Assembly (NCBI GenBank): GCA_019054805.1
Contig: JAHQIY010000013.1
Span: 1,178,001 to 1,242,000, forward strand
From: Brachionus manjavacas
Lineage: Eukaryota; Rotifera; Eurotatoria; Ploima; Brachionidae
DNA length: 64,000 nt
Direction of reading: 5' to 3'
Shown: positions 11,530 through 32,400 of the stretch, piece after piece
How positions within the stretch are numbered: the first letter of the stretch is position 1
Layout: every line of letters starts with the position of its first letter
Made by a program: the position numbers and the translations under genes
The notes under the pieces: generated by a model
Database searches by the model: none
What the model saw: only the letters and a program-made list of their open reading frames with translations
Told to the model about the DNA's origin: nothing

Positions 11530-12005
11530 AGCATAAGGTAGTCTCCACAAACCCTTGATAAGATCAATCTTGGATTATTCACTTCCTTCTACAAATGCCT
11601 TCCCAGAAACCAACATTAAAAAATACAATTATTCTAAATTCGGCAGTTCGATCTCTTTTGAAGCTGAAATATGATGCTCTCTCAGACATTTTACATCACA
11701 GGTCCTTAAATAAACTTGAACTGAAACAGCATCAGATCGATATTGAGTTGAGTGAGAGCTATATTGTGACAGGACTGCATCATTCTGTTCCATTAGTTTG
11801 GTGGAGGAATACAAACAAGGTTTCGAATCAAGATATATTGAATACCCAACTGCGGAAACAACAACATCAGTAATTTCTTCTTTTTCTTCTGTCCTCTAAA
11901 ATATTTAAAAATGTCTAACTAATGTCTAGCTATCTCAATTGACCTTTTTCTATTTTATTTATTTTTATTCTGAAGGAACGTTAGTTCGGTACAGATAAAC
12001 AATGA
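11530..12005 (+). mobile_element. LINE fragment (CR1/L2-like): ORF2 C-terminus, 3' UTR and hairpin tail
   Basis: Frames from about 11560 give a degraded GSILDYS-type start, then RSLLKLKYDALSDILHH and SESYIVTGLHHSVPLVW, ending near EYKQGFESRYIEYPT in another frame. The same order occurs at 31250-31620 (minus) and 63080-63250, so these are one family. At least one frame change separates the pieces. The 3' hairpin is GAAC-GTTA-GTTC at about 11976-11987, a variant in which both stem sides changed together, followed by GGTACAG. Confidence 0.65.
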
Positions 12006-12672
12006 TTTAAAATAAATAGTTTGTGATCATTTCTACTAATATTTAATTTTTTTGTCTGCTTCATAGAATAGTGATTTAAAGAAGGTTCCGAAAGCAAGTT
12101 TAAGGAAAAGTTTTATTCATCTGTATTTCAAAAAACTTGAAATTAAAATAAATTAAAAATTTCTATGTCCAAAATTTCATGCCAAAATTTTGCTATGATG
12201 TAGTGCTTTTTTTGTCTAGAAAAAACATCAAAAATTTTGATTGAAAAGCATGGAAATATAACGTCTGTAGCAAATTTGTTACAAAATAAATGATGATAAA
12301 AAGATTCATTGTGTCTGCATAACGAAAATTAAATAAGAGAAAATCTAGTTCTATGGAAAAATTCAAATTGCTGAATAATCAAAACTGTAATATTAAACTA
12401 AAAATAAAAAAAAATTAAGTGCTTTATTAATGCTCTAAAAATGCTTAAGTCATGCATTCAAAAAAACACCAATAAAAAAGTTAAGCTATAATTTATTAAT
12501 TAAATTCTCTTTTAAAAAAGTAGCATGTGAACTTAAAAATGGCTTAAACAGACATTTTAATATTGGCCTCAATTTCTAATAAACAACAAAGAGCTGACAT
12601 CTTCATGTTAAAAGTTTATTATAATTTATTAAAGTTAATGAAAAATCTCTTTGATATTTCATATAATGAATT
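12006..12672. other. Gene-free AT-rich stretch upstream of U4 copy 1
   Basis: No open frame, RNA or repeat boundary is recognisable apart from the promoter-like words listed with the U4 gene. Confidence 0.4.
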
Positions 12673-12680: not shown

Positions 12681-12704
12681 AAAGTTAAAATACTATTTCT
12701 AATC

Positions 12705-12846
12705 AGCTTTGCGCAGTGGCGATAACGTAATCAGTGAGGTTCTACCGAGATGCGTTTATTGCTAATTGAAAACTTTTACCAATACCCCGCGAAGACGACG
12801 TGAAATACCGTCGGCTTACGCAATTTATGTGCGCCTTAACGGGCCT
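12705..12846 (+). ncRNA. U4: U4 spliceosomal snRNA, copy 1
   Basis: The RNA (~142 nt) starts AGCTTTGCGCAGTGGC, the strictly conserved U4 5' end that forms U4/U6 stem II. Next comes the 5' stem-loop with the kink-turn GTGAGG-loop-CCGAG bound by the 15.5K/Snu13 protein. TTATTGCTAATTGAAAACTT follows and forms U4/U6 stem I. The central domain contains CCAATACCCCGC and a GACGACGTGAAATACCGTCG stem. An Sm-like site AATTTATG precedes a short 3' hairpin (GCC-TTAAC-GGGC). All parts occur in the canonical order and at the usual length. The 3' end is estimated. No T-run follows directly, so RNA polymerase II is the likely transcriptase. It lies at the outer edge of a large inverted repeat opposite an identical copy. 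Confidence 0.95.
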
Positions 12847-13827
12847 ATTTCAATAAATCAAAAGAAAAATTCTCCAAATTCACTTAATAAATATCCTTTC
12901 AAATATATAATAAGTGATTTTTAAAATTTTTTTATTAATAAAAACATTTCTTGAAAATTTTTTCTAATATTGATAAAAATTCAATTTTTTGATTCAAAAA
13001 AAAAAGATAAATAATATAATTTTTCAGTATAATCATCAAAAAATTTTGTCAATTTTTTAGACATTTCAAATCAAAACTTGTTAGATTAACTAAAAAAATT
13101 CAAAAAAAATAATTTAAACTGTAATTTTAATAATTATTATTTAAAAATAATGATTTAAAAATTATTTAAAAATTTTAATAAATTATTATTTAAAAATAAT
13201 GTCACAAATTTAATTTGAAAAGTATGTAAATGGTTTATTCAAAAAAGTGTTCTGTTCATAAATCCAAAATAAATTCTTATTAGAAATGTATCGGTACAAT
13301 TTAGTTGTGTTGGAAAAGCTATAAAGATATTTTCGAGCACATTTGATTTTTTTCCCAGGCGCTAGATAAATTTTTTTGGAAAATAATAGTCTCCGGTGTA
13401 ATCTATGACTCATTTTTCAAAGTTATCTCTCTCACTTTAGATATCAAAGATTTTTTAAATTTAAAAAGAAAAATTTAATTGAAAAATTAAATTTTAGAAC
13501 TAAATAAAATATCTGAATTTCAGAATAAAAATTTTTTATTCTCTAAACTTGGTAAAGAATAGCAGTAGAAAGAGAAAGAGAGAGAGAGTATTAGCTAAAA
13601 GCTGCAAATAATTTTATTGTAAAAATTCTATATCCAAAAGGTTTTAAAAAGCTATGTTTAATAGAATTGAGCAACTGTTCCCACCCTCTTTTGAATACGG
13701 TTTAGCTTCTCTCTTTCGATTAAGAGAACATTTAGAAAAAATTAAAAAAATTCAAATTAAATATTATTTTTTATTTTATTTTAAAAAAGAAATAATTTTA
13801 TTTTATTTTATTTGAAAAAATAATTTT

Positions 13828-13900
13828 GGAGTAACACTCCAGGGCAGTTTCGAGCGGCAAAGGGTTCTCTTTTCAGCCCTCATGTTTGAAAATTTATGGT
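13828..13900 (+). repeat. Double-hairpin repeat, copy 3 (inside U4 spacer)
   Basis: GGAGT-AAC-ACTCC is followed by AGGGCAGTTTCGAGCGGC and then GCCCTCATG. The outer stem here is GGGC/GCCC. Primary sequence has drifted but the two-hairpin layout and the trailing CCCTCATG match copy 2. Confidence 0.45.
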
Positions 13901-14907
13901 TAAATTCAAATGCAAAAAAGTTAAATAAATATAAGTAAATAAAATTAAAATACAATTTAAGTTTCTAAAAAATTAAAATTTGAATGAATAGGTTATTTTT
14001 ATAAAATTAAAATAAAACTTAAAGAATCTGATTTTTAAAAGAATATATTCAATTAGCGCCAAACTCAAATTTAGCTTAAGGAATTAATTTTAAAAAAAAA
14101 TTGAAATAAAAAATAAAAAATTTAATAAATTATGCAACTTAAATTTTTCATGAAATCAAAGTTTAAAATTTCAAATAAGAAATCATCAATTTTTTCTTAT
14201 ATTTTCTGAGTTCCGAATTTAATTCGAATGGAAGGGTCGTTTTAATAAAATTAGAAATACAGATAATAAGCAGATAAATAAAGAAACTGATGTTGAGTAT
14301 TTCTAAATAAATGAACAAAAATTTTTTTATCTGATAGAGGCAATTTAATTGAAAATAAATAAACGTTGATATTTTTTTAATTTCATCGTGTCTGAAAAAT
14401 TTTCAAATGTTTCTATGGAAAATATTTTTTGATTAAGTAGTAAAAATTCATTTATTAATCCAAATTTTTAATGAAATAATAAAGAAGTAAAATTTTATAT
14501 CTTTTTTAATCAAATAAAATAATTCCAATCCAGTCAAATGATTTAAGAAAAAAACTACCTTATATATATTTTAATTATATTTAAAAAGGATAGAAATTTT
14601 TATTTTGCAAAATTATTTATAATTTATCATTCAAATTAAATTAATTTTTTTGAATTTTTTTAGTTAATCTAACAAGTTTTGATTTGAAATGTCAAAACAA
14701 TTGAAAAAATTTTTTGATGATTTTACTGAAGAATTATATTATTTATCTTTTTTTTTTTGAATCAAAAAATTGAATTTTTATCAATATTAGAAAAAATTTT
14801 CAAGAAATGTTTTTATTAATAAAAAAATTTTAAAAATCACTTATTATATATTTGAAAGGATATTTATTAAGTGAATTTGGAGAATTTTTCTTTTGATTTA
14901 TTGAAAT

Positions 14908-15049
14908 AGGCCCGTTAAGGCGCACATAAATTGCGTAAGCCGACGGTATTTCACGTCGTCTTCGCGGGGTATTGGTAAAAGTTTTCAATTAGCAATAAAC
15001 GCATCTCGGTAGAACCTCACTGATTACGTTATCGCCACTGCGCAAAGCT
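14908..15049 (-). ncRNA. U4: U4 spliceosomal snRNA, copy 2
   Basis: This is the reverse complement of copy 1 with no base difference that I can find over the whole RNA, so the kink-turn, stem I and II segments, central domain and Sm-like site are all intact. It points toward copy 1 (3' ends facing). The sequence upstream of its 5' end is unrelated to that of copy 1 except for the TATA box at the same spacing and a loosely similar element about 65 bases upstream. Perfect RNA identity and a conserved promoter word suggest both copies are functional and kept alike by gene conversion (inference). Confidence 0.94.
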
Positions 15050-15073
15050 GATTAATCTAAAACACTTAAGCAA

Positions 15074-15081: not shown

Positions 15082-15458
15082 TCCTATTTCATGCGCTAAA
15101 TTTCAAGTAATTTTTATCAACTTATTAAAATTTGAAATTATTTTTTGAATAAAATTTCAAAATTACTTCTAAAATAATTCATTAATATTGACTTAAGTAC
15201 ATTTATGTAAAAATTCAATTGAATTGCAAAATTTTAATTGAGTTTAAACAGACAAAGTCCGCTCCAGCCTAATTTGTCAAAAGAGACATAACCATCATTT
15301 TAATCATCGGTCAATGGAATTAAAAAGTATAATAAATGAACAAAAAAGTTAGAAAATGTAAATTCTTGAGCTCAAACCTTATTCCTAAATTATCTATTAA
15401 ATAGCCAGAAATTTGTTGGTAAAAAGTTATTTTAATTTTTAATTTTAAATTTATCATA

Positions 15459-16014
15459 CAGTGCTGCTACGATACCTTGAATTCACCAAATTTACCGTAA
15501 AATATGGTAATCTAAAAAAGGGTATTTTTCATGAAAAAAAATTTTTTTTTTGAATTTTTAAAAAAGGAAAAAAATTAAAATTTGATTGAATTTTTTGACC
15601 AAAATTTACGTAAATTTCGGTAAATTTTTGTAGAAAAAGGCGAAAAGAAATTGCTTTTTGTAGAAAAAAAATTGAATGTAATAACAAAAAATCCATTTTT
15701 CCTTTGTTGTTGATTTTTTACCATTTTTTGCCTTTTTTTACAAAAATTTACCGAAATTTACGTAAATTTTGGTCAAAAAATTCAATCAAATTTTAATTTT
15801 TTTCCTTTTTTGAATTTTGAAAATCGTTTTTTTTCGAGAAATTTTGGAATTTTTTTTTTCACTGAATTTTACAATAATTATCGGTAATTTACGATAATTA
15901 TCGTTATTTTACGAAAAATACCCTTTTTTAGATTACCATATTTTACGGTAAATATGGTAAAATATCGTGAATTTACGTAAAATATGGTGAATTCAAGGTA
16001 TCGTAGCAGCACTG
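15459..16014. mobile_element. Tc1/mariner-type MITE (556 bp)
   Basis: The ends form a perfect inverted repeat of about 30 bp starting CAGTGCTGCTACGATACC, flanked on both sides by TA (15457-15458 and 16015-16016). CAGTG ends with TA duplication are characteristic of Tc1/mariner elements. The interior is also largely self-complementary (ACGTAAATTTCGGTAAATTT and its complement) and rich in TTTAC/GTAAA words. It encodes no protein. The arms match closely, suggesting a fairly recent insertion. Confidence 0.88.
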
Positions 16015-16019
16015 TAAAA

Positions 16020-29400: not shown

Positions 29401-32400
29401 TTTCGTGATTCATTGCTCTTTACTTCACCATTCTAAGAAATCTGAAGATAAATATGGTGACTCTAGATTTGTCGAGTACCCGACTCCTTCGTGTAATTGC
29501 TACCTTGCAATTTTTTCTATTTTTCTTGAACCTTCAAATATTTAGACATGTACAACCTGTCTTTATTTCAATCTATTTATTTTAATTTTCTTCTATATTT
29601 TTATCATTTTTTATTTTATTATTACTCATTAATTATATGACAAAATTGATGATGTAATCTCCAATTGGATTAATATAAGTCTTAAGCTAGAGACTTTTCA
29701 TACATCAATTGCTAATAAAGTATCTCCTGATTTTTTCTTTCCAGCAGAAAAATTTACTCCGTTCATGAACTGAACTTCATGAAAAAATTTAGTTTATTTC
29801 TATTTCCTATTTTATCTGTAAAACTTAATTTGAAAATTGGAAAAAAGTCACTATAGATTGTTCTGAATTTTTTGTCTGTACTTCCAATCCAGATTAATTT
29901 TTCTCAAATCAGGTCTTTAATTTCTCTTCAAATTTGGATTTTTTTTGTGTAATTCCTAATTTAAAGATAATAGATTTAAGATTTTATTTTCGATTTTTGA
30001 ATTGTTAGAGGGTGACAATTTTATGCTATTTGACAAAAAAAGATTATAATTATTTTTTTCTAATTTTATTGTCCAAGATGTATGTTAAAAATAAAAACGA
30101 GAATTATTATCTCTAATAATTAAAGGTTTTCAAAGATCTAATTTAAAAGATTAGCAAACTAAAGCTAAATAAAGGCTTTAAACAAAGTATTAGATCAAGA
30201 TTCAGGATTTAATTTTTTGTTTACTCAACTAAACTTGATCGAATTTCAACGAAATTTAATTCCTCAATTGTTTAATGTACTTTTTTCTTTCATTTTTTTG
30301 TATTTCTGCTCGAGCCTCAGCACCTTGAGGTAAATAATTAATCAATTTAAAGCAAGTTTGATACTAGTTTCATTTCGTTCAATTAGTTAGATAAATAATT
30401 AAGGAATTTAAGTAAGATTTAAAGGGTTGCTGAGATGGGGAATGGAAAAAGTTGAAGAAAATGCCATCGAGGAAAGCTAACAGTTTTAAGCAGATGCAGA
30501 GACAATTTTAAATTGGCAAAAAATTTCTAATCTAAATATAACCAAGATTTAACAAATTTCTGCTTAGTGTAGAGTATTTACAGGATGAAGCGGGTAGTGA
30601 AGCAGTCCGATGCACATCCGTCAAAATTAAGTGACGTCTCGACAAAAGTTAAGCGAACTGAAACGTTTGTTTTCTTTCAGGAAGTTGATCGATTTTATTA
30701 TTTTTATTTATTAAGTTCAAGTCCCATGGACAAATTGAAATAAAATGTTTTATATAAAAAAGGGAAAAAAAAAATTTAATAGAATAAAATATATATTTTT
30801 CCAAAATTGTTATATTCAGAGCACCATTCAATCAAAGGAACATTTATTTTTATTTGTTTTCTGCACCGAGCTATAGCTCCTTCAGAATAGATTAAAAAAT
30901 AAAAATAAAGTAAAATAACCACCAGTCTGACAACTAATGACTGAATCAGTTCTGTCCCCAAATATCTCTCACTCAACTCAAAAAGTAGATTGTAGAATCG
31001 AGAATAGATCTGACTGCTGTATTCTGAATTGCTTGAAGTTTTCTGATATTTGTTTTTTTTTGTTTATCTGTTCATCTGTTCAGAAATAAAAGTATAGATT
31101 AAAAATTATAATTAAAAATAAAATAAACTTTAAAAAAAAAATCAAAAGGTTAATTAATATATAATTTAAATAAAATAAGTTTAAATATAGAAGGAAAAAG
31201 GATTAATTGAAACAGAAAGTGACAGATTGTTCATGATTAAGTATCTGAAGATTCAGCTGTATAAGAAGAGATAGTTAGGTAGCAATTACACAATGGAGTC
31301 GGGTAAGCTATGAACCTTGAATCAAAACCTGCTTTGTATTCACTAACTAATCTGACCACCAGAGGAACAGAATTAACCAGTCCTCTCCCGACATGTCTTT
31401 CACTCAATTCAAAAAGTCGATTCGTGACAGTATGAAGTTTAAGTTTGTTTAAGGCCTGATGATGGATAATGTTAGATGAAGTGTCATATTTTAGTTTTAG
31501 AATAGACCGCTGAATTTTGTATGACTTGAATTCTTTTCAAGTAAGTATCAGAAATAGAATTTAAACATGGGAAAGAATAGTCTAAAATTGAACCGATTAA
31601 AGATTTATAAAGATTTCCTAATGTCTTAAAATCCCATTTTTATTTGATAGGTATTTTATTAAGTTTAGCCTAAAATACATCGCTTTTTAATAATAAATAA
31701 ATTTGATTCTATAATGTTGATATAAATAGAAAAAATTATCTGTAAATTAAAATTATGAATTTCTCTCACTAAAAAAATATTTTCCGTCTATTTTTATTTT
31801 TCAGATTTAAAGAAAAAAGCTTAACTTTTGTGAATTAAACTATTTTTTTTTTTATTATATTTCTATGTAAAACATCGCCAAGCCTGGCGTAATTTTTTTA
31901 AATAAATTAAATTAAAAAAAAATTAGTTTCATCTACCATGGAAGTGAAGTTTAATTTTGAGTCAAACAAAATCCCAAGAAACTCTACTTGATTATGGCGA
32001 CTTGGGCTATTTTTATACATTTTTTGATCGAGATCAGTTTTTTCATTTGAATTTTTTGAAATAATCATGTAGACATACTTTTCAACTGAAATTTTCATCT
32101 TCCATTTGAAAAGCCACTTTTCAAGTTCTGTTTGGTATTTATTCATCGTAATCTCAAGATTTCTCCTCTTATTAAAAATAAAAAAAGTAGCCAAATCATC
32201 TGCAAAGAGCAGGGAGTATTGGCTATTCGTTTTGTTTCTTTTTGGTATATCGTTAATAAATATACTAAATAGAAGAGGACAAATTACAGAGCCTTGTGGG
32301 ACCCCTGCTTTTATTCGAAATTGATCACTCAAGAATCCATTTACATTTACCATAAAAGATCGTGAATCCAGAAATGATCTAACCCAATGGATAAGATAAG

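Follow-up and report, generated by a model that had tools for sequence, protein, structure and literature searches.

Both major-spliceosome U4 snRNA genes that a covariance search detected in the 114.17 Mb, 61-contig assembly of Brachionus manjavacas lie at a single locus, on opposite strands of one small inverted repeat, with identical RNAs whose 3' ends face each other. The locus falls in a stretch of 64 kb (the window, 64,000 nucleotides, within a 3.2 Mb contig). Identity is complete over the RNAs and the adjoining 3' flank, falls off towards the centre of the repeat, and stops abruptly on the promoter side. We consider it probable that an old inverted duplication was followed by arm-to-arm gene conversion, which has kept the U4 pair alike. 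On this reading the pair is known biology, arm-to-arm conversion, in a new gene family. With both detected U4 genes in one small inverted repeat, it offers a clean natural test of conversion acting on essential RNA genes.

The two genes, U4a (12705-12844, + strand) and U4b (14910-15049, - strand), each match Rfam family RF00015 over the whole model (1-138 of 138) at 112.1 bits (E 1.2e-24), above the gathering score of 46 bits, and they are the only two Rfam matches above family threshold in the window. An ungapped comparison finds 140 of 140 positions identical, which bears out the earlier note's description of full-length U4 RNAs on opposite strands, 3' ends facing, with no base difference. 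Nucleotides 5-12 form a perfect 8-nt complementary run with both U6 genes of the same genome. Folded as a single strand, the RNA shows no clear gain in stability over shuffled sequences (z -0.87), which has no bearing on RF00015 membership.

The convergent RNAs, with ~2.1 kb between their 3' ends, sit in arms whose outer parts (12700-13005 on the + strand, 14749-15054 on the - strand) are 100% complementary over 306 nt and separated by 1743 nt. This identical block, recovered by repeat search, takes in the RNA, 5 bp of 5' flank and 161 bp of 3' flank. It is followed on the inner side by a diverged shoulder (13006-13116, + strand; 14637-14748, - strand) with 6 substitutions in ~111 nt of alignment, the inner end on the right being deduced from a 1-nt indel. 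Similarity can be followed farther with blastn (12700-13156/15054-14594, 462 columns, 95.0%) and with a strict alignment that reaches 13193/14560 with growing gaps (501 columns, 92.6%). The inverted repeat is far beyond chance. Without gaps, and not counting the stretch in which the arms themselves run on (168 nt, 85%), the runner-up in the window is a 99-nt, 94% pair within a small palindromic element; with gaps allowed, in a 10-kb region that contains the locus, the self-fold of that element comes next (300 columns, 77%), then a 165-column, 77% pair. A third match to the U4 arm, on contig C16, covers 82 nt of the AT-rich 3' flank at 76% and is absent from the U4 covariance results.

Counted from the RNA start in a base-by-base alignment, homology between the arms extends to about +412, in agreement with the ~415 bp proposed earlier. 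Over this distance there is one A-run indel (+291) and there are six substitutions, at +318, 326, 344, 351, 355 and 405, all past +317; the count stops at +412, where the alignment fragments into gaps, and identity beyond it is 58% and then 50% per 100 bp. The decay towards the centre that had been described is thus real, as is complete identity over the RNA and some 150 bp beyond. The proposal that the decay is centred on the functional RNA did not hold: the identical block is lopsided, with 5 nt on the 5' side of the RNA and 161 nt on the 3' side. Leaving out the RNA, the 3'-box-like stretch and the A-run indel, substitutions number 0/130 from +172 to +301 and 6/111 from +302 to +412 (Fisher P 0.009, with the boundary set post hoc), and both parts of the flank are 14% G+C. 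Against simulations that place six positions uniformly, the first substitution has P 0.004 and the mean position P 0.02. The unevenness is real but modest, the U4 step by itself amounting to six substitutions across that boundary.

One fairly recent event that copied U4 in inverted orientation, together with ~410 bp of its 3' flank and from either copy, would place a breakpoint near -5 and so agrees with the sharp 5' edge of the block, a feature that is outside the predictions of a generic conversion model. It would also require the substitutions in the outer 110 bp to be a clumping of mutations, for which P is ~0.004-0.02, and the PSE-like element upstream of U4b to be a chance neighbour. We regard this as unlikely, and return below to the promoter elements and to a second pair of genes that bear on it.

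The 5' flanks argue in a different way against a simple event. From -100 to -1 the U4a and U4b flanks are 61% alike, exceeding what unrelated 100-mers show (300 draws: mean 50.5%, sd 4.7, maximum 60.9) and within the 53-64% found in 15 different-contig pairs of full-length U1, U2, U5 or U6 genes of the same kind (a truncated U2, which with the U2 on contig C1 reaches 69%, is excluded from this range). Similarity at this level is also seen between snRNA genes of different contigs, so the duplication was not just a recent copying of the whole unit, and a recent duplication of entire arms, considered as the simplest account, was discarded for this lack of excess similarity. The bases that the two copies share immediately upstream, TAATC, may belong to the promoter instead of having been copied, because AATC also precedes two of the four U1 genes.

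Farther out, the 455 bp upstream of U4a match the assembly once (at themselves), and the 407 bp upstream of U4b have just two short further matches (45-50 nt, 86-89%). These sequences speak to whether the repeat was made by the assembly, as a hairpin chimera or as an allelic copy joined in inverted orientation. We judge such an artefact highly improbable: the outer flanks of the two arms differ, the arms carry real differences, and an allelic join should match through the 5' flanks. An allelic mis-join at this locus was accordingly set aside as unlikely, the differing flanks having no long second copy.

We label two kinds of upstream motif PSE-like and DSE-like because they sit at positions analogous to those of known snRNA elements. 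A 15-nt PSE matrix was built from the upstream regions of 14 U1, U2 and U5 genes, excluding the truncated U2 and both U4 copies. It places AAAGTTAATGAAAAA at -74 of U4a (12631-12645, + strand; 18.7 bits, P 0.0001 over 13 positions), the top matrix score of the 64-kb window, and a weaker element, TAAGTTGATAAAAAT, at -75 of U4b (15110-15124, - strand; 8.7 bits, P 0.0084 over 13 positions); because the seed words were chosen by eye from a listing that held U4, one seed being the U4a element word itself, these P values flatter U4a somewhat and call for the same caution for U4b. The two U6 genes score just 2-3 bits with this matrix.

A motif scan also finds a DSE-like element, GATGTCAG (reversed), upstream of U4a (12594-12601, - strand). 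The pattern GATGTC[AG]G occurs twice in the window, both strands counted, and the scan found no DSE-like motif within 600 bp of U4b. Of the 19 snRNA loci scanned, 11 have the broader form, GATGTC plus any base plus G, in their upstream region (reversed in U4a), and two U1 genes carry the near form GATGTCGC. An A-rich stretch, located by eye in the 3' flank listing, follows both RNAs (12858-12870 on the + strand after U4a; 14884-14896 on the - strand after U4b, within the identical block). Similar stretches after several U1, U2 and U5 genes lead us to infer that it is 3'-box-like.

Both U4 copies may be active, with U4b behind a weaker promoter-like element. A lower PSE score (8.7 as against 18.7 bits) and the lack of a DSE-like element are what a transplanted copy might show, in keeping with a single recent copying. 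A chance element of U4b's score near -75, which that account needs, has P 0.008.

The PSE-like element of U4b likewise bears on RNA-templated copying, in which a read-through U4 transcript serves as template and is copied from +1 past the normal 3' end. The identical block does start just 5 nt before the RNA and, with AATC recurring before two of the four U1 genes, the copied part may begin at +1. Such a route would not supply U4b with a PSE-like element of its own, nor would it explain a U5 pair, described below, whose similarity begins at -78, ahead of the RNA start; we hold it to be very improbable.

Identity of the RNA itself needs no conversion because selection could hold it, and U4 RNA is generally under strong constraint. 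That purifying selection alone, with no exchange, keeps the copies identical is nevertheless scarcely credible: it must also hold ~130 nt of AT-rich 3' flank past the 3'-box-like stretch, while unlinked U2 and U5 genes vary inside the RNA. Conversion is supported by the 306 identical nucleotides, 161 of them in non-coding flank of 14% G+C, beside a shoulder with 6/111 substitutions.

A second convergent inverted snRNA pair is present in the same genome, formed by U5 genes on contig C4 at 8483565 (+) and 8492882 (-) (loci L023 and L024; G000:C4:8483565-8492994). The RNAs are identical at 113 of 113 positions, and the pair aligns from -78 to +418 at 95.4%. Substitutions outside the RNA number 5/283 from -78 to +318 and 10/77 from +319 to +395 (Fisher P 0.00014; the step was placed post hoc, and two indels and the final 23 sites, which hold a further 6 substitutions, were not counted), so that divergence rises from 1.8% to 13% near +320. 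The U5 pair repeats the U4 pattern with better numbers and has much the same architecture. Its similar block has its 5' edge at -78 and holds the promoter element inside, whereas the U4 block is without promoters. The GATGTC motif lies downstream of the RNA in this pair, reversed. Four equal-scoring tRNA-Ala(AGC) genes in mixed orientation lie between the two U5 copies.

The same step in a second pair counts against a single recent copying of U4. Taken together, the non-uniform identity of the U4 and U5 pairs (P 0.009 and 0.00014) favours conversion over a single recent duplication, as the earlier note had argued, although two features of the U4 tract do not fit its argument: the tract is off-centre and the U4 promoters lie outside it.

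The other snRNA genes allow a broader comparison within this one genome. The covariance search returned six full and one truncated U2, four U1, four U5, two U6 and one U4atac; these counts, like that for U4, are lower bounds obtained by scoring just the best first-pass candidates (41 for U4). Five U2 genes on contig C6, within 216 kb and in one orientation, are identical at 194/194 positions in 10 of 10 pairs (the truncated U2 excluded), and six of the pairs have 100-bp flanks that are just 63-70% alike. The unlinked U2 on C1 differs from each of them at 5/194 sites. The two unlinked U5 genes are 78-84% alike in comparison with the other U5 genes and with each other, and the two U6 genes, on different contigs, are 85.0% alike. 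Linked U1 genes form two direct pairs, 704 and 417 bp apart start to start, with just 85.5% and 80.1% identity, and the closest match among the U1 genes (96.3%) is between copies on different contigs. Since these linked copies have diverged, linkage alone does not guarantee homogenisation. With identical RNAs in both inverted pairs (U4, U5) and among the linked U2 genes, linked U1 genes not identical and unlinked copies diverged, this contrast within one genome makes the roles of linkage and orientation testable in related species.

Several of these loci have features of their own. The truncated U2 (L012, G000:C6:6079556) equals full U2 over its first 95 nt and is unlike it thereafter; it shares 74 bp of the promoter region of U2-3, and an intact U2 begins 533 bp after its start. 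In each U1 cluster (L013 and L016 on C1; L014 and L015 on C9), one gene has the usual 5' end, ATACTTACCTGG, and the other reads ATACTTACTTGG, with C changed to U in the segment that pairs with the 5' splice site. These two variant genes form the 96.3% pair, alike despite their different contigs.

Conversion after an old inverted duplication is the simplest way to account at once for the identical core, the dissimilar promoters, the diverged shoulder and the parallel in U5. The duplication would have set the two U4 genes tail to tail at about their present spacing of 2.1 kb between 3' ends, and arm-to-arm conversion would then have rewritten one copy from the other. The latest such event would have spanned ~160 bp of 3' flank in addition to the RNA and its 3' signal, with an older layer of homology persisting to about +412. 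The two promoters, outside the converted block, would have diverged beyond recognition save for a correctly placed PSE-like element. With the RNAs in convergent orientation, a crossover between the arms would just invert the spacer, and both genes would keep promoter, RNA and 3' signal. Direct repeats, by contrast, would lose or gain copies through crossover.

More tentatively, and with considerable doubt, we suggest that the convergent inverted pair could be an arrangement of low-copy snRNA genes that has recurred in this lineage (in U4 and in one U5 pair) and is maintained by selection: conversion would keep RNA and 3' signal identical, U4 promoters would stay private and crossovers would be turned into harmless spacer inversions.

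Concerted evolution of snRNA families in insects and vertebrates leaves linked copies more alike than expected, mostly in tandem or clustered arrays, and the U4 pair resembles these families in its alike linked copies and differs in its mirror-image layout. The arms of human Y-chromosome palindromes are far larger than the U4 arms. These palindromes (PMC3723533) resemble the U4 locus in having inverted arms and conversion between them; they differ in being sex-linked, with arm similarity above 99.9% and conversion genotyped in 378 Y chromosomes.

The closest published case is that of the Caenorhabditis inverted-repeat paralogous pairs of Zhao et al. 2007 (PMC1803023), among them the HSP16 locus and F44E5.4/F44E5.5, in divergent and convergent arrangements. 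Such pairs are often more alike within than between species, and the authors discuss gene conversion as one mechanism and incline towards selection on the inverted-repeat structure. They share with the U4 pair paralogues in inverted arms, very high arm identity and a unique spacer, and one pair cited there is, like U4, alike over just part of its genes. The Caenorhabditis pairs are protein-coding and were compared across three species; the U4 genes encode an snRNA, come from a single genome and have their promoters beyond the identical block.

Small RNA genes also face each other in the Euglena U3 snoRNA-U5 snRNA pairs (PMC2784804), which multiplied as a unit and combine two different RNAs rather than inverted copies of one gene. 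In a tunicate (PMC5006418), U4 is single copy and tRNA genes occur in tail-to-tail arrangements. No report of a mirror-image U4 pair was found among the matches listed, which is weak evidence of absence, most subscription journals being outside their scope. A literature search on gene conversion between human RNU4-1 and RNU4-2 had no match, and exact U4 stretches matched nothing in viral_contigs or genome_contigs.

A search of the assembly with the snRNA promoter pattern pointed to three places, the unlinked U5 on C5, the unlinked U5 on C12 and one on C17, and the pattern read backwards, as control, gave one match. The C17 locus (L034) has an snRNA-promoter-like motif pair, and the 3 kb scanned there hold no Rfam match with E of 1 or less; it may be an unrecognised small RNA gene or may be due to chance, because the backwards control also gave one match. 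On C12, a RAGATH-11 RNA match (L031, 4018-4135; 91.3 bits against a threshold of 79.4) lies ~250 bp from the U5 gene on the opposite strand.

Within the window, the small palindromic element (15457-16016) lies ~400 bp upstream of U4b, has terminal inverted repeats starting TACAGTGCTGCTACGATACC and looks like a non-autonomous DNA transposon. The open frame at 11562-11873 has no Pfam match. Its peptide words LKLKYD, HH..LNKL and SVPLV have similar counterparts in the open frame at 31237-31536, which suggests a dispersed repeat. A rotifer spliced-leader sequence gave 0 matches when as many as 2 mismatches were tolerated. An axonemal dynein heavy chain is present, and the genome is animal-like.
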